Of a stretch of DNA of 61,225 nt, positions 2,702 through 25,245 are shown piece by piece; position 1 is the first letter of the stretch; each line of letters begins with the position of its first letter. The DNA is from a virus: IMG/VR virus record IMGVR_UViG_3300048838_000781, positions 1 through 61,225 of that record; one strand, written 5' to 3'. A program made the position numbers and the translations under genes. Below the pieces are notes generated by a model. It saw only the letters and a list, made by a program, of their open reading frames with translations. It did no database searches and was not told the DNA's origin.

Positions 2702-2902
2702 ATGGCAGCAACTGAGCCACTCAAGACCGAACCGGAGACAGGCGCGGCAAGGTTCTCAGAACCATTCCTCACCGATGTGAGGAGGTTCCTGCAGGTTCTC
2801 TCGCCGAGGTCGCACGAGCGACGGGTGTTCGAGCTCCTCTCAAAGTACAAGGACCGCGAGAAACCAGTTTCTGGTCCTGGTGGTAGGCGGGCAACCGCCT
2901 AG
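2702..2902 (+). CDS. small hypothetical protein
   Basis: 66 aa, 57 bp after the membrane protein gene and on the same strand, preceded by a good ribosome site (AGGAAG, 2692-2697). No known domain; the segment FLTDVRRFLQVLSPRSHERR is probably helical and basic. It may be co-transcribed with the 629-aa gene. Its end overlaps the end of the recombinase gene on the other strand by 4 bp. Confidence 0.55.
   Translation: MAATEPLKTEPETGAARFSEPFLTDVRRFLQVLSPRSHERRVFELLSKYKDREKPVSGPGGRRATA
2884..2901. terminator. possible bidirectional terminator hairpin
   Basis: TAGGCGG-GCAA-CCGCCTA is a perfect 7-bp stem with a GNRA-type loop, placed exactly where two convergent genes meet (66-aa gene and recombinase). 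There is no T-run on either side, so intrinsic termination is not certain. Confidence 0.4.
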
Positions 2903-4419
2903 CCTGGTAGCTGGTCGGACGCAGGCCGAGCTATCGGAGTCATTGTCACCCCAGTCACTGCCCACGGAGACGACCCGCGAACCGTGCGGCCGAGCTCATC
3001 CCGCTGCAGCGGAACTCGCTCGAGCTCGACGTCGACCCACTCGACGACCGAAGCGATCAGCCGGCGCTTCTGTGCGTCGGTGAGCCGATGCGGCGACCCG
3101 ACCACGGCTCGCACGGCGGCGGCTGCCCGGCGCAGATCGGTGCCGTCGAGCGAGGCGACGCGCACGAGAGCGACGCGGTGGCGTTCTTCGGCGGCGGCGA
3201 TCGCGGCACGGTACTCCTCGGCCCGCTCGGCGAACTCTGCTGGCGAGATCTCGCCGTCAGCGCGTAGGTCGATCAGCACGGACTGCCGGCGGCGCAGCTT
3301 CTCGATCTCGGCCGCCGCTGCGTCGGCTTCGGCCTGGACCGATCCGAGCTGCTCGGGAGCCTGTGACGCGCGGACGATCTCGTCGAGCATTTCGCCCTCG
3401 ACGAGGCGCACAAACTCAGTCCACACTGCGGCGTTGACGAGTGCCACCGAGACCCAGGGACCGCCCGGCAGCGCGTAGGAGTTCCGTCCCTTCGAACCGT
3501 CGATTGTGGGTAGCCGCCCACCGATCCGGAGCATGCCGGTGAGCATTCCGATCCGGCCGCCGCCGGTCGCACGCTCCCGCAGGGCTCGCTGAGACGCCTC
3601 CCAGGTCTCGCGATCGACGATCGCTTCGTGGGCATCGGGTACGACGATCGCTCTCGACATGTCTGGTGCGTGGTAGCGCTTGCCGGGAACCTGCTTCCAC
3701 GCACCGCTGAATGCGACGCCCAGGTAGGCGGGGTTCTTGAGGATGCTGACGACGGAGGACTTGCACCATCGGGAGCCGCGTCGCGTCCGCGAGCCGTCGG
3801 TGTTGAGCCTTCGGGCGATCTCCTTCGCCGACACCCCGGAGGCCGACCAGGCGAACATCCGCCGCACCACGGCGGCCTCGGCCGGCACGATCTGGAGCGT
3901 TCCGCGCTGCGGGTGTCCCTTGGGCGGATTCTGGTAGCCGAAGGGGCTGATCGATCCCGCGCGCTTGCCTTGCTTCGCCTTCTCACGACGCCCTCGAGTC
4001 GTCCGCTCGCGGATGCGCTCGTACTCTGCACGGTCGACCAGAGACTGGATCCCGAGCATGAAGCGATCATCGATCGAGCCAAGGTCTCGGATCGCACCCT
4101 GGACGATCACCCGCATCTGCCGCTCTCGAAGCTCACGCAGCAGGAGCGCCACCTCGAGTTCGTCGCCGCGGGTCAGCCGGCTCTGCTCGTGCACGTAGAT
4201 CGCGTCGGCTCTGAGATCGCGCACCGCGGCGAGGACCTGCTGGAGCACCGCGCGGTCCTGGACAGCGAGGGCCCCCGACTCGACGCCGCGGAACTCAGCG
4301 ATCGTGGTCCATCCGCTGCGGGTGGCTAGCTCGCGGTAGATCCGCTGCTGCGAGTCGAGGGAGGAGCCTTCGGCGGACTGGACCTCCGTCGAGACGCGGA
4401 AGAGAGCGATCACCCGCAT
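2899..4419 (-). CDS. int: large serine recombinase (phage integrase)
   Basis: 506 aa. Catalyses site-specific integration and excision by a Ser-DNA covalent intermediate. The N-terminus FRVSTEVQ carries the catalytic Ser10 with Arg8; HEQSRLTR completes the resolvase active site. A recombinase domain follows (about 150-255, with the GRREKAKQGKRAGSISPFGY linker typical of the family), then a zinc-ribbon-like region (about 270-330) and a coiled coil (about 355-420). The usual zinc-ribbon cysteines are absent: the only Cys is in SRWCKSS. It is the last gene of the leftward early operon and overlaps the upstream gene by 10 bp. The 2-bp shared sequence at the comM junctions fits this enzyme class, and no other integrase is present. 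Confidence 0.95.
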   Translation of the reverse strand: MRVIALFRVSTEVQSAEGSSLDSQQRIYRELATRSGWTTIAEFRGVESGALAVQDRAVLQQVLAAVRDLRADAIYVHEQSRLTRGDELEVALLLRELRERQMRVIVQGAIRDLGSIDDRFMLGIQSLVDRAEYERIRERTTRGRREKAKQGKRAGSISPFGYQNPPKGHPQRGTLQIVPAEAAVVRRMFAWSASGVSAKEIARRLNTDGSRTRRGSRWCKSSVVSILKNPAYLGVAFSGAWKQVPGKRYHAPDMSRAIVVPDAHEAIVDRETWEASQRALRERATGGGRIGMLTGMLRIGGRLPTIDGSKGRNSYALPGGPWVSVALVNAAVWTEFVRLVEGEMLDEIVRASQAPEQLGSVQAEADAAAAEIEKLRRRQSVLIDLRADGEISPAEFAERAEEYRAAIAAAEERHRVALVRVASLDGTDLRRAAAAVRAVVGSPHRLTDAQKRRLIASVVEWVDVELERVPLQRDELGRTVRGSSPWAVTGVTMTPIARPASDQLPG

Positions 4420-13627: not shown

Positions 13628-14191
13628 CTAGAACGGAATGTCCCCGTCATCGTGCGGAGGAGCCGATCCGCCACCGCCGCCCTGGGGGCCGCGAGACGGG
13701 GCCGGGGCCTGGTCGCCCTGCGGCGCGAGGTTGAACGCGGGATCGGTCAGGCGGCGATCGAACAGAGCGTTCAGCCGGCGAGCCTTGTCGCCGTCGGCGT
13801 CGAGAGGAACGTTGGAGCGAGGCGGGAGCATCAGGTCCCAGTCCTCCCGCGCCTCACCGGTATCTCGGTTGGGGGTGTGCTTGCACTGGACCTTGACGTA
13901 CGCGCCGATCATGTCGGGCTCGAGAGTGGCGAAGTCCGTGCCGTTCCAGCCGGCGTAGCGGAGCTTCTTGAGGATGAAGTCGAGGCTGCGATCGTCGTTG
14001 ACGACCAGGTTGATGAACCGGGTCGGGGTCTGGTCCGTCGCGTAGAAGTCCGCAGCGGAACCCCACGGGTCGGCAAGCTCGCCAAGGATCCGGACCTTGA
14101 GAGTGATCATGTCCTTGCCGCTCTGCGACTCGCGGAATCCGAGTTCTTCGACTTCGGCGGAGTAGTATCCGGCGGAAAGTTGGGGTCGCAT
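13628..14191 (-). CDS. ssb: single-stranded DNA-binding protein (SSB-like, DUF669 type)
   Basis: 187 aa. An OB-like N-terminal domain (to about 130) is followed by a Pro/Gly-rich disordered linker and the acidic tip DDGDIPF at residues 181-187, the same tail that bacterial SSB uses to recruit partner proteins. It would coat ssDNA during phage replication and recombination. It lies 53 bp from the Sak4-like ATPase, a usual pairing in phages that use a RecA-like annealing ATPase. Confidence 0.85.
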   Translation of the reverse strand: MRPQLSAGYYSAEVEELGFRESQSGKDMITLKVRILGELADPWGSAADFYATDQTPTRFINLVVNDDRSLDFILKKLRYAGWNGTDFATLEPDMIGAYVKVQCKHTPNRDTGEAREDWDLMLPPRSNVPLDADGDKARRLNALFDRRLTDPAFNLAPQGDQAPAPSRGPQGGGGGSAPPHDDGDIPF

Positions 14192-14244: not shown

Positions 14245-15129
14245 TCAAGCTGCGGTCTCGGTGTCGGTCGTCTCCTCCTTCGGCCCTTCGGCGGGACGGT
14301 TGGCAGCCCGAGCGGACTTGATGGCACCCGAGAGGTTGGCCCAGGCCTCCGCCCCGCTCGAACCCATCGGAACGGTGGCAGGAAGACCCACGCGGTTCTT
14401 CGCGTCGTATGCGGCATGGCGCTCGGTGTAGAGGACTCGATCGCGGCCCCCCTTACCCTTGACCTTGTTGGCGCCCGGTTCCTTGCTGACGGCTGTCACG
14501 TAGTTGGCGAACAGGCACATGTCCGACCAGCGGAGAGTCAGACCCCAGATTTCCTTGCTCATGTCGGCCTCGAACCGGTCGTAGTCCGAGCCTTCCGGGT
14601 TGTTGAACGTCCGAATCTTGGTGTGGGTCAAACCGATGATCGCCATGCGACGACGCGACCGAATCTCGTCGAGTAGGGTGATGAGTTCGCGCCACTCGTT
14701 TGCCGCCACGGCTTGGCCCTTGCCGTAGCTCATGAACTTCTCGTGGTCGTCTTCGAAGAAGACCCGCCGGGTGTGCTCGATGCAGAGCTTCTCCAGCCCG
14801 TTCAGGGTGTCGATCGCGAGCGTTCTGAAACTGTGTTCATTGTTGAGGAGCGCCTCGAGCATGCCCTTGGCATCGAGCCAGGTCTTGGCTTCGGGAAAGT
14901 GCGGTGTGTCGCTCAACCGACCGGCGTCGATCAGTGTCTCGAGCCCGGTCTCTCCGCGGCTCTGCAAGAAAACCACTCCCGGCGCGTTCGCGGCGAGACT
15001 GGTCTTGCCCACTCCCTCTGTGCCATGCACGATGACCCGGCTCGGCAGGCCGGAGCCGGTCGATCGAATCGAGGCGAGGAAGTCCATCGAGACAGCGCTT
15101 GGGCCGCGGCGGTTTGGGTTCAGATTCAT
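14245..15129 (-). CDS. RecA-like recombination ATPase (Sak4-like, AAA_24)
   Basis: 294 aa. Walker A HGTEGVGKT (35-43) and the Walker B-like LAIDTLNG. The segments WRELITLLDEI and AIIGLTHTKIRTF fit the minimal RecA-core family that includes Sak4 single-strand annealing proteins. With the SSB downstream and the nuclease upstream it makes a recombination module. A C-terminal Thr/Glu-rich tail is probably disordered. Confidence 0.85.
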   Translation of the reverse strand: MNLNPNRRGPSAVSMDFLASIRSTGSGLPSRVIVHGTEGVGKTSLAANAPGVVFLQSRGETGLETLIDAGRLSDTPHFPEAKTWLDAKGMLEALLNNEHSFRTLAIDTLNGLEKLCIEHTRRVFFEDDHEKFMSYGKGQAVAANEWRELITLLDEIRSRRRMAIIGLTHTKIRTFNNPEGSDYDRFEADMSKEIWGLTLRWSDMCLFANYVTAVSKEPGANKVKGKGGRDRVLYTERHAAYDAKNRVGLPATVPMGSSGAEAWANLSGAIKSARAANRPAEGPKEETTDTETAA

Positions 15130-15156: not shown

Positions 15157-16329
15157 TCAGGCGGCTTCGTCTTGGTGCTGCTGAGAGATGGCAAGGGACT
15201 CGTGCGCGTACCAGGCTTCGAGGGCCTTGTGCATCACGTGTCCGAAGAACAGGTTCTCGTCGCGGTCGTCGCGGCGCTGGATGCCCAGCTCGTAGCGGTA
15301 GAAGTGCTGGCGGCGGCAGGTCAACCACGTCTTGAGCCGGCTGTTCGTCAGCACGTCGCGGCCACCGCTCGCGCTCGACAGGCCTTCGAGCTCGGGATGC
15401 ACGTCCGCGCGCTTCTGCCACTTATCGCTGTCCGGCGTGTCGTACCCCGAGCAGATCCCGAGGTAGGCGCAGGGCCGGCCGTACTTCATGCACGCGTCGG
15501 GATTGCGCAGGTGGCGGCCATGGTGCCGCGCCTCGCGCATCTCGGTCGCCGCGTCCCACAGCTCGCGGGCGTACTCGACGAGGTCGTGATCCGGCCGCGG
15601 CACTTCGCGACGCTGGAAGTAGGAGCCGAGGTTCTCCCGAATGTCGGCCGAGAGGCGGTAGCCGTACAGCTCGGGACACTCGACGAGCTGGGTCCCGCGC
15701 AAGACTCGATCGAAGGTCTGAGCCGAGACGACCGCGCCGAAGTACCGGCCTGACCCGACGATCTCGAGCCCTTCCTTCTTGCTCAGCTTCCGCGGCTTGA
15801 TCGAGGGCTTGCGGATCACGTCGTAGACGCAGCCGTCGAGCTTGCAGCCGAGCTGCCAGGCCAGGAGCAGGTACTTCGACACCTGCGAGGAGAGCTGCGC
15901 CTGCTGCCAGTAGGGCGCGTCCGCAGCCTCGATCGAGTCGCCAGTCGATTTGTGCTCAACCAGCATCTTCCGTCCGGTTTCGCTGTGCACGACGATCGCG
16001 TCGAGCTTGCCGGCGGACGAAAACGTCCTGCTCGGCTTGCCGGTTTCGGGGTTCACGAGCTGCACGTGGGCCAACTGCTCCACCGCCAGGGTGCGCCACG
16101 GCTCCTTTCCCCACCGAAGCTCGTATCCGGTCATGAGCGCCCTGACCTTGACCGCGATCAGCGCGTCTTCCGGAGTCGTAGCAGGGCATGCCTCGGCGAT
16201 TGCCTGGGATGCCGCGAAAAGGCGCCCGATGCGCGGATTCCCGAAGGCGGGCCGCTCGGCTGCCGGGGAGACAGCCGAGGCGGGGTCTTGGGTCTTTACG
16301 CTGTGTGCGAGCGATGAGGTGGGCATCAC
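15157..16329 (-). CDS. RecB-like PD-(D/E)XK nuclease with circularly permuted motifs
   Basis: 390 aa. The nuclease core is central: GKLDAIVV (Asp110) and LVEHKST (Glu125, Lys127). The Cys trio C280, C287 and C293 (NPDACMKYGRPCAYLGIC) fits the Fe-S cluster of the AddB/Cas4 branch. What is odd is that the motifs normally at the N-terminus, SRLKTWLTC (fourth Cys, C338) with YRYELGIQ and the motif I block FGHVMHKALEAWY, are at the C-terminus (330-374). The N-terminus instead begins with unrelated residues and joins at ALIAVKVRALMTGYELRW, which normally follows the HKALE block. All four Cys and the active-site residues are therefore present in permuted order. Likely processes DNA ends for the Sak4-like protein. 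Confidence 0.85.
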   Translation of the reverse strand: MMPTSSLAHSVKTQDPASAVSPAAERPAFGNPRIGRLFAASQAIAEACPATTPEDALIAVKVRALMTGYELRWGKEPWRTLAVEQLAHVQLVNPETGKPSRTFSSAGKLDAIVVHSETGRKMLVEHKSTGDSIEAADAPYWQQAQLSSQVSKYLLLAWQLGCKLDGCVYDVIRKPSIKPRKLSKKEGLEIVGSGRYFGAVVSAQTFDRVLRGTQLVECPELYGYRLSADIRENLGSYFQRREVPRPDHDLVEYARELWDAATEMREARHHGRHLRNPDACMKYGRPCAYLGICSGYDTPDSDKWQKRADVHPELEGLSSASGGRDVLTNSRLKTWLTCRRQHFYRYELGIQRRDDRDENLFFGHVMHKALEAWYAHESLAISQQHQDEAA

Positions 16330-22679: not shown

Positions 22680-23264
22680 ATGCCGAGACCCAGGCTCCCA
22701 GTGTACGCCTCAGACGTCAATGCACTTCGAGACCGCGACTCGCAGGAGCGGGAGGAGATGCTGCAAGCGCTCTCCACTTGTGCACAGCGCCAGCGGCCGA
22801 TCAACGGCCAGGCGTCGCCGACTGCCGTGCGGTCGATCGCCAATCGCCTCCACGTCGTCGAGGAGGCCGTCTACCACCAGTGCGACGGGCAGACCGTTGG
22901 CAACCCGCTCGTCGAGCTGTGCGCCTGGATCGACGGAGCTCGCGCCGCGGGCAAGCCGGACGAGCACGCGCTGGCGCCCCTCGCCTGGCTCATCCGGCGC
23001 TACCAGCCGCAGACCACCACCGCCGCCTCTCCTGCCGAGCTGACCAGCTCGTGCACCTCGGCTCTGTCGAGCGCGGCCGCCGTCGTGCAGTCGGCTCTCG
23101 AGTCGATCGCCGAGGATGGTCCCGGAGGCGCTTCGGCGACGCCGGCCGAGCTGAAGGCATACCGGCAAGGTCGCCTCTCCCTCGATCGCCGGCTAGCCGC
23201 ACTCGATCAACAGATGGAAGAGCGTGCGAAGGCGCATCGTCCGCGTGGGGAGCAGGTGCAGTGA
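22680..23264 (+). CDS. hypothetical early regulator-like protein
   Basis: 194 aa from the ATG at 22680 with a GGAG site. The part TAVRSIANRLHVVEEAVYHQ then NPLVELCAWIDGAR and LAPLAWLIRRYQPQ has the shape of a phage CII-type regulator (HTH-like front, helical middle), but the match is weak. The C-terminus is helical and charged (LDRRLAALDQQMEERAKAHR). GTGA overlap with the next gene. Function not established. Confidence 0.6.
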   Translation: MPRPRLPVYASDVNALRDRDSQEREEMLQALSTCAQRQRPINGQASPTAVRSIANRLHVVEEAVYHQCDGQTVGNPLVELCAWIDGARAAGKPDEHALAPLAWLIRRYQPQTTTAASPAELTSSCTSALSSAAAVVQSALESIAEDGPGGASATPAELKAYRQGRLSLDRRLAALDQQMEERAKAHRPRGEQVQ

Positions 23265-23539
23265 GCGTCCCGGCGTACTTCAAGCTGGTCACGTGCCTGA
23301 TGCGGCACTTCGACGGCGAGACGGTCCCGAAACAGCTCGCCGTCAAGGTGGACGGGGATCGGCTGTACTACCACGCGGACGAGCTGGTCCGAGAGTCGGA
23401 CGAGACGATCGACTGTGCGCGCTTGATGGACCTGTACTCGGCGCTGTTCTGGTGCCGATTGAACGGTCCTGCGACGGTCTACCGCATCGCCGGCTGCGAT
23501 TGGTCCCTGGTCATTCCCAACGCGGAGCTGGCTCGATGA
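23261..23539 (+). CDS. hypothetical early protein
   Basis: 92 aa from the GTG at 23261, overlapping the upstream stop, and itself overlapping the methyltransferase start (ATGA). Small alpha/beta protein with four Cys (VTCLMRHF, DCARLM, FWCRLN, AGCDWS); no family recognised. Confidence 0.65.
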   Translation: MSVPAYFKLVTCLMRHFDGETVPKQLAVKVDGDRLYYHADELVRESDETIDCARLMDLYSALFWCRLNGPATVYRIAGCDWSLVIPNAELAR

Positions 23540-25245
23540 CCGCCGCAGCCGTCCTGCTGCCGATGGACGCAGAGCCCGAAGCGCCCCAGTCGGCACCGAC
23601 CGCCTACGACGACATCGAGGCCATGGTCTCAGCGCGCAACGCAGCGATCGAGCACTGGCGCGCGTTCTTCGTCGCCCTGGAGGGCGCCCACGAGCACCGG
23701 CGGCTCGCCCAGGACACGATGATGCAGGCCTGCCAGGGGTTCGGCTTCTCCTCGCACGTTGGAGACGACAGCATCTCGGCGTTCGCCAAGGCGACCGAGC
23801 TGCCGAGCATCGGTCGGCTCTTCTCGACCGCGGTGCAGCTTGTCGACATTCGGATGTGGTCCGCTGTCCTCGATCGCTCCGGCCTCGAGTACCTGATGGA
23901 CAAGCAGGCCAAGCAGGAGTGGTCGAAGCAACTCGCCTTCATCGCTGGTCCCGAGATCGATCCGCGAACGCCAGACGACGCGCTGGAGCCGATCGGCGGC
24001 GTCCCCGGAAAGCTCCCGCCGTTCACCGCCGAGAACGTCCGCGCCAGTATCCGCCAGTGGCGTGAGGAGTCGATCGAGACGTTCGCCCGAGGAGTCGCGA
24101 ACGTGTTCAGCGCGCTCGACTCCCGCTTCAAGTCGCACGACGGATTCAAGGTCGGCTCGCGCGTGATCCTCGGCAGGATGTTCTCCGAGTGGGGATCCTC
24201 GCGGTACGAGACCATCGATTCCTTCGTCGACGTCGAGCGTGCCTTCATGGTCCTGGACGGCGTCCCGCGGCCCGAGATCGATCCTTGGCGAGGAGTCACC
24301 GACGAGGACCTCGCCAAGATGCACCCGAAGCTCCGTGCCTGCTACCACCAGGTGGAAGGGGAAACCGCGTGGCACTTCGGCCTGTCAGGGATCCTGCGGC
24401 GCCGTCGGTCCACTCCGCACCAGTCCGAGCACGAGTCTCCCTACATGAAGGTGCGCGTGTTCAAGAACGGCAACGCGCACCTGTGGTTCAAGCGCCCGGA
24501 CCTCGTGGCTTCGATCAACGCCCTGCTCGCCGACTACTACGGCGGAGCGCTGGGCTACGGCCGTGAGAGCTACGACGAGGACGGGCAGGTCGTCGAGCCC
24601 GCCAAGACCTCGTTGCTCGACTCCGCGGTCGATCGGCCGGCAGCGAAGAACCTCGGCTTCTACCAGACCCCGCCCGAGCTCGCCGCGCGAGTGATCGAGC
24701 TTGCAGGGATCGCAGGCGGCCATCGGGTCTTGGAGCCATCGGCTGGCACCGGAGCGCTCATCTCCGCGGCCCTCAAGAGTCTGGCCCGGACCGGCAAGGG
24801 GATCGGTCCGCTGCTCGCCAGGGCGTTCGATCTCGAGGAAGTCGGCGGCCCCGTTCAGATCGTTGCAGTCGAGCTCGATCCCAAGCGGGCGGCCGGGCTG
24901 ATGGGAAGCCATCCTTGGATCCGCGTCGTACCGGGTGACTTCCTCTCGATCGAGCCTGAGCAGCTCGGCGAGTTCGACCGGATCGTGATGAACCCGCCGT
25001 TCGACCGTGGGCGAGACCTCGACCACGTCGCTCACGCTCTCCGGTTCCTCAAGCCCGGCGGCACCCTGGTTTCGATCACGTCGGCGTCTGCTCGGTATTC
25101 GTCGACGTCTCGCGGCTCGGAGTTCCGCAAGCGCCTCGAGTCCCTGCCGCACCGATGGGCGGACCTGCCGCCAGGCTCGTTCAAAGACGCCGGAACGATG
25201 GTCAACACCTGCCTGCTTCGAGTGGGGACCAACTCATGGTTCTGA
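23536..25245 (+). CDS. DUF4942-type domain fused to N6-adenine DNA methyltransferase
   Basis: 569 aa from the ATG at 23536. The N-terminal half (about 30-300) matches the DUF4942 type found joined to phage methyltransferases: an early helical domain, then YMKVRVFKNGNAHLWFKRPD. The C-terminal half is a SAM methyltransferase: entry FYQTPPELAARVIELAGI, motif I LEPSAGTGAL (399-408), acidic VELDPKRA, and catalytic NPPF (486-489). It would methylate adenine in DNA, protecting phage DNA from restriction or tagging it. No restriction enzyme is beside it, so it acts alone. Confidence 0.85.
   Translation: MTAAAVLLPMDAEPEAPQSAPTAYDDIEAMVSARNAAIEHWRAFFVALEGAHEHRRLAQDTMMQACQGFGFSSHVGDDSISAFAKATELPSIGRLFSTAVQLVDIRMWSAVLDRSGLEYLMDKQAKQEWSKQLAFIAGPEIDPRTPDDALEPIGGVPGKLPPFTAENVRASIRQWREESIETFARGVANVFSALDSRFKSHDGFKVGSRVILGRMFSEWGSSRYETIDSFVDVERAFMVLDGVPRPEIDPWRGVTDEDLAKMHPKLRACYHQVEGETAWHFGLSGILRRRRSTPHQSEHESPYMKVRVFKNGNAHLWFKRPDLVASINALLADYYGGALGYGRESYDEDGQVVEPAKTSLLDSAVDRPAAKNLGFYQTPPELAARVIELAGIAGGHRVLEPSAGTGALISAALKSLARTGKGIGPLLARAFDLEEVGGPVQIVAVELDPKRAAGLMGSHPWIRVVPGDFLSIEPEQLGEFDRIVMNPPFDRGRDLDHVAHALRFLKPGGTLVSITSASARYSSTSRGSEFRKRLESLPHRWADLPPGSFKDAGTMVNTCLLRVGTNSWF

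Follow-up and report, generated by a model that had tools for sequence, protein, structure and literature searches.

Three cyclic orders of the same segments in a family of predicted phage RecB/Cas4-like PD-(D/E)XK exonucleases

The window analysed here (61,225 nucleotides, positions 1 to 61,225 of the IMG/VR virus record IMGVR_UViG_3300048838_000781) carries a gene whose product is assigned by family profiles to the RecB/Cas4-like PD-(D/E)XK exonucleases (phrog_1218, 7.9e-30; PF12705, 1.2e-12, over the curated cut-off), and the best explanation overall, which we regard as very probable, is that this gene is a natural circular permutation of that phage enzyme. In the conventional proteins three segments follow one another as A-B-C, with the catalytic Asp in B and the ExK motif in C; of the Fe-S cysteines, one would come from A, which also holds the GxxxH helix, and three from C. 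In the class to which the window's protein belongs, the chain would have been re-cut just behind A, and A re-joined after C via a linker some 10 residues long, so that the order becomes B-C-A; once folded, the rotated enzyme would differ from the conventional one in little but the position of its ends.

The coordinates of the gene, its segments and its neighbours are given in Table 1. The reading frame may start at GTG (16329) or ATG (16326), both being equally possible, and residues 1-29 of the protein are predicted to be disordered and are missing from most homologues. Segment B, the first part of the catalytic core, terminates at GKLDAI with the metal-ligand Asp D110 (16000-16002), while segment C contains the ExK motif (E125, K127), Q149/Y153 and the Cys trio C280/C287/C293 and terminates at VHPEL. 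Segment A, the block that is usually N-terminal, carries C338 (15316-15318), G363 and H367 (15229-15231), and S330-C338 and G363-E371 sit C-terminal to D110, E125/K127 and C280/C287/C293; the full motif set (D110, E125, K127, Q149, Y153, G363, H367) is present. The linker between C and A has a median length of 10 aa in the B-C-A class and 12 aa in a second rotated class, C-A-B, described below. A preliminary description, made from the window's letters, had placed an N-terminal-type block at residues 330-374, after the PD-(D/E)XK core and the Cys trio; two outside profile libraries bear out this placement, and the span was correct to within a few residues, 326-376 being the better limits.

Table 1. 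Coordinates of the putative permuted exonuclease gene, its segments and neighbours in the window, and of genes of the C-A-B class
Feature	Position	Strand	Remarks
Putative permuted exonuclease gene, whole	15157..16329	-	390 aa; stop at 15157
Segment B (residues 53-113)	15991..16173	-	Matches to HMMs B_C/B_2
Segment C (residues 121-314)	15388..15969	-	HMM C_C 1.7e-30; conservation
Junction linker (residues 315-325)	15355..15387	-	Connects old C-terminus with old N-terminus
Segment A (residues 326-376)	15202..15354	-	PF12705, A_C HMM, BLASTP to L019
Sak4-like ssDNA annealing protein, AAA_24	14245..15129	-	Next gene downstream; phrog_124 3.4e-32, PF13479 3.6e-29
SSB-like gene	13628..14191	-	Same run; phrog_378 1.7e-5
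C-A-B exonuclease genes	L098:3989-5113; L100:4016-5101; L103:3980-4951; L110:1-912; L111-L134		
HNH genes beside C-A-B genes	L098:3492-3989; L100:5050-5649; also L119, L122, L124-L127		Upstream (L098); downstream (L100)

The record also encodes a lysogeny-type integrase, a portal and a major head protein and therefore represents all or a large part of a tailed phage genome. This large integrase (2899-4419, minus strand; phrog_95, with a DNA invertase also matched) suggests that the phage is temperate and has a serine recombinase. The C-terminal part of a 673-aa protein encoded elsewhere in the window (23224-25245, plus strand) has matches among DNA methyltransferase families and to numerous large phage proteins.

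Profile and pairwise matches place the window's protein as B-C-A against the collinear A-B-C order of the phrog_1218/PF12705 family. The best stretch of PF12705 pairs residues 328-378 with profile positions 3-51, and that of phrog_1218 pairs residues 60-291 with positions 98-327 of 364; in the conventional relative L019 each of the two profiles is matched in one collinear stretch. BLASTP of the window's protein against L019 returned two swapped segments (36-314 to 63-323, 34% identity, E 4e-47; 326-374 to 7-54, 41% identity, E 6e-8), and an HMM of block A whose source was three conventional proteins only (A_C) matched the window protein's C-terminus at 6.5e-10. Swapped matches with the window's protein were also obtained for 65 of the 75 conventional proteins and all 28 C-A-B proteins, which answers the alignment with non-permuted homologues that the preliminary description had proposed as a check. 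When proteins were compared with a 316-position profile built from conventional proteins, every conventional protein showed 0 order breaks, and exactly 1 was found in each B-C-A (63/63) and each C-A-B (28/28) protein, with cut positions clustering at about 49-60 and about 123-136 of the profile, respectively. The ends of the proteins in both rotated classes are complementary at matching profile positions, nothing being duplicated and nothing missing.

The window being a metagenomic virus record, two genes joined by misassembly or in a chimeric contig could in principle produce such an order, as the preliminary description had itself cautioned. However, the complete Tunturi_1 and Tunturi_2 genomes, from cultured Acidobacteriota phages, have tblastn matches collinear with the window's protein (40-42% identity, extending as far as residue 376), and IMG/VR scans found many further homologues in the window's order, with 28-50% identity across dozens of independent contigs. 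Because the same order recurs in 63 fetched loci, those two complete genomes included, both chance and assembly error are excluded, and the probability left to a misjoined contig is negligible. The same scans yielded sisters in conventional order, L019-L021 first and then many, and among 182 classed loci the orders A-B-C, B-C-A and C-A-B were counted 75, 63 and 28 times (the remainder are partial or divergent matches), with no complete non-cyclic order; the three orders observed are exactly the three cyclic orders of segments A, B and C. Several of these loci are overlapping fetches of one contig, and 120 sequences are left after identical ones are dropped (55 A-B-C, 46 B-C-A and 19 C-A-B).

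Conservation of the motifs follows the segments in whichever order they stand. Eight residues (C280, C287, C293, C338, G363, H367, D110 and K127) are invariant in a ten-member alignment of proteins in the window's order and still so with 41 members. Within each of the three orders, C338, D110, K127, the Cys trio, Q149 and Y153 are kept by essentially all sequences, and the four cysteines (C338, C280, C287 and C293 in window numbering) are present in 120/120 non-identical complete sequences across the three orders, in line with the earlier claim that all four presumed Fe-S cysteines and the active-site residues are retained. Judged from the sequences, the rotations, their conservation and the retention of these residues are established. 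Scans of genome contigs for the family first found nothing and then two MAG contigs only, so the exonuclease family appears essentially viral within the sequences scanned. Two loci showed features of their own: in L109 (233-1243) a conventional-type gene is seemingly split over two adjacent ORFs, with A in one and C in the next (a frameshift or a real split), and the protein encoded at L006 (7612-8700), which has no relation to the exonuclease, contains a series of short, nearly identical repeats (QVRAQVGAQVWAQVWAQV...).

An arrangement of this kind might also arise by fusion, if the gene had lost its own block A and gained C-terminally the A-like block of another RecB-like nuclease; many nucleases have short A blocks, and frame-split forms are possible (L109). 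Against this, the divergence of block A follows that of B+C (Mantel rho 0.41 vs a null maximum of 0.07), and within classes the two diverge in step (rho 0.82 in B-C-A and 0.91 in C-A-B), which indicates that A is the gene's own block, moved with its core. Block A is as similar to that of the conventional sisters (37.5% identity) as the core is (32%), and the complementary ends show neither overlap nor loss. The recruitment of a foreign block is disfavoured by this parallel divergence, and we consider fusion very improbable.

The AlphaFold2 model of the window's protein, computed with 41 sequences in the window's order, was confident (mean pLDDT 90.2, pTM 0.85; pLDDT 34 in single-sequence mode): only residues 1-29 fell below 50, and the C-terminal block (residues 321-380) averaged 88-97 per ten residues, so that the structure prediction likewise proposed in the preliminary description has given a confident model that includes this block. 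From these confidence values, block A is expected to pack on the core. With a linker of only about 10 aa, the C-terminal block could instead pack against a partner subunit's core, making the enzyme an obligate dimer, and oligomers are known for Cas4 SSO0001 (PMC4176176), but the monomer was predicted with confidence along its whole chain, and a domain swap of this kind seems unlikely to us, though less so than fusion. Foldseek against the PDB gave RecE, AddAB and MGME1 as top matches, weak and partial (best E 3e-3), as expected for a rotated chain since Foldseek follows sequence order, though in itself no proof of how the chain packs; a phmmer search of the PDB returned noise only. In BFVD, A0A6J5NSY1 from an uncultured Caudovirales phage, named only as PD-(D/E)XK nuclease superfamily, superposes over the whole length (355 columns, TM 0.72/0.81, rmsd 3.1) and, to judge by this sequential superposition, probably has the window's order too, while the other PD-(D/E)XK proteins in that search aligned partially or with large rmsd. 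The circular permutation first read from the window's letters is thus supported by single-break rotations, swapped pairwise matches, retained residues and a confident model.

The crystal structure of Cas4 shows one N-terminal and three C-terminal cysteines holding one Fe-S cluster, with Asp123 and Glu136 as metal ligands (PMC4176176). Since one cluster is bound in conventional enzymes by both the single cysteine of A and the trio of C, the old termini should lie near each other, and a rotation would therefore be sterically easy and tolerated. The four cysteines are likewise predicted to meet in the rotated protein, because their retention in all non-identical complete sequences would otherwise be odd. 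We infer that the rotated enzyme packs in this fold, binds an Fe-S cluster and acts as an exonuclease.

Four loci at first put in the permuted set start no earlier than the ExK strand and end just past the catalytic Asp; the L103 protein aligns with L019 as 5-187 with 142-325 (46%) and 193-320 with 5-137 (49%). A dedicated scan for this order added more such loci, and on these alignments the C-A-B class, which the preliminary description had not foreseen, represents a second circular permutation, cut between the catalytic Asp and ExK. In the window's AlphaFold2 model this cut falls in the active-site hairpin, where strand 99-115 turns into strand 121-129. HNH endonuclease genes adjoin the exonuclease gene in 8/19 C-A-B sequences vs 2/102 others (Fisher 3e-6, a p value overstated because the C-A-B rows are related), and in mycobacteriophage RecB/Cas4-like nucleases an intein is inserted in the conserved PD-(D/E)XK motif (PMC5050341). 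By analogy with that precedent, and because HNH genes adjoin the C-A-B genes, the data suggest that homing elements at the active-site DNA may have contributed to the C-A-B cut. The same two observations could be taken to mean that the C-A-B genes are split genes rejoined by intein or intron splicing, which would mimic a rotation; however, every full-length C-A-B ORF has all three segments once and uninterrupted, and none of the segments was found a second time nearby, and we hold splicing to be improbable.

In the family tree, the B-C-A sequences form one group of 36 rows and another of 8, and the C-A-B sequences likewise two, one of 17 rows and the other L103, corresponding to four label changes; C-A-B and one B-C-A group fall among conventional rows, and the window's 36-row B-C-A group forms its own strongly supported branch. 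Approximately unbiased tests rejected a single origin neither for B-C-A (p 0.37) nor for C-A-B (p 0.29), and the claim is therefore limited to at least two rotations in the family, with up to four possible. A small B-C-A group (L076, L078, L081, L091, L145, L150, L168) stands apart from the window's group, possibly an independent rotation at the same cut point. The A-B-C order is standard in other RecB/Cas4/AddB families and is for that reason taken as ancestral; the PF12705 profile itself has this order.

Tandem duplication followed by trimming is the textbook route to circular permutation and, as the preliminary description had supposed, a plausible one here, but no duplicated-block intermediate was found among the 182 classed loci, and a search for duplicated remnants or leftover short segments near the permuted genes gave nothing above noise. 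A joint reading would have one orthologous nuclease gene rotated repeatedly, up to four times and once or more through the active-site hairpin, with C-A-B arising via HNH homing elements that entered both tandem copies at the conserved active-site DNA and left the rotated frame as the sole whole copy; we offer this reading tentatively, as a possibility well short of even chances.

The window's locus has the arrangement of an exo/Sak4/SSB recombination module, in which the exonuclease is followed by a Sak4-like annealase. Sak4 lies directly downstream of the exonuclease in 45/47 B-C-A, 48/55 A-B-C and 14/19 C-A-B sequences, and since this annealase usually comes next, the most likely role of the enzyme, from homology and gene neighbourhood, is DNA end resection for phage recombination. 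The rotated enzyme would resect DNA ends, and the neighbouring Sak4-like annealase and SSB would then promote recombination.

The nearest conventional phrog_1218/PF12705 sisters show 34-41% identity to the window's protein and likewise stand before a Sak4-like gene, and the conventional exonucleases of this family (L019; the actinophage 'Cas4 family exonuclease') share its catalytic and cysteine motifs. The Cas4/AddB 'iron-staple' nucleases also resemble it in having one block cysteine and a Cys trio, the catalytic Asp, ExK and the GxxxH helix; however, their first cysteine is N-terminal and the trio C-terminal, whereas the single cysteine of the window's protein follows the trio, and the window's exonuclease, unlike them, adjoins a Sak4-like gene and has no fused helicase. 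Permutations have been discussed elsewhere within the PD-(D/E)XK superfamily. In the openly available literature we found no published permuted RecB/Cas4-type nuclease, in agreement with the earlier remark that no such member had been described, although an earlier mention in reviews of the superfamily is possible; the Cas4 phylogenomics paper does not mention permutation, and the word 'exonuclease' is absent from the main text of the Tunturi phage paper (PMC11924767). Jumbo phages have circularly permuted DNA adenine methylases (PMC7824862), in which a DNA-processing enzyme has likewise been rotated in nature without loss of its active site, but their fold is unrelated, and two different cut points are a feature of the nuclease family. 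The intein-bearing mycobacteriophage nucleases (PMC5050341) likewise present the PD-(D/E)XK motif as a target of mobile elements, as suggested for C-A-B, but there the intein interrupts the protein, whereas in the permuted family it is the order of the segments that has been rotated.

Enzymes with a natural circular permutation are uncommon, and here relatives that look functional have the same three segments in every possible cyclic order within a single phage gene family. For annotation, order-dependent profile and structure searches report the rotated proteins in pieces only. The family offers a ready-made test case for the origin and tolerance of rotations, and the cultured Tunturi phages make the permuted exonuclease testable. 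Two wider questions are touched by it: what the Fe-S 'staple' does, namely whether it makes termini interchangeable, and whether mobile endonucleases can drive a change of protein topology.
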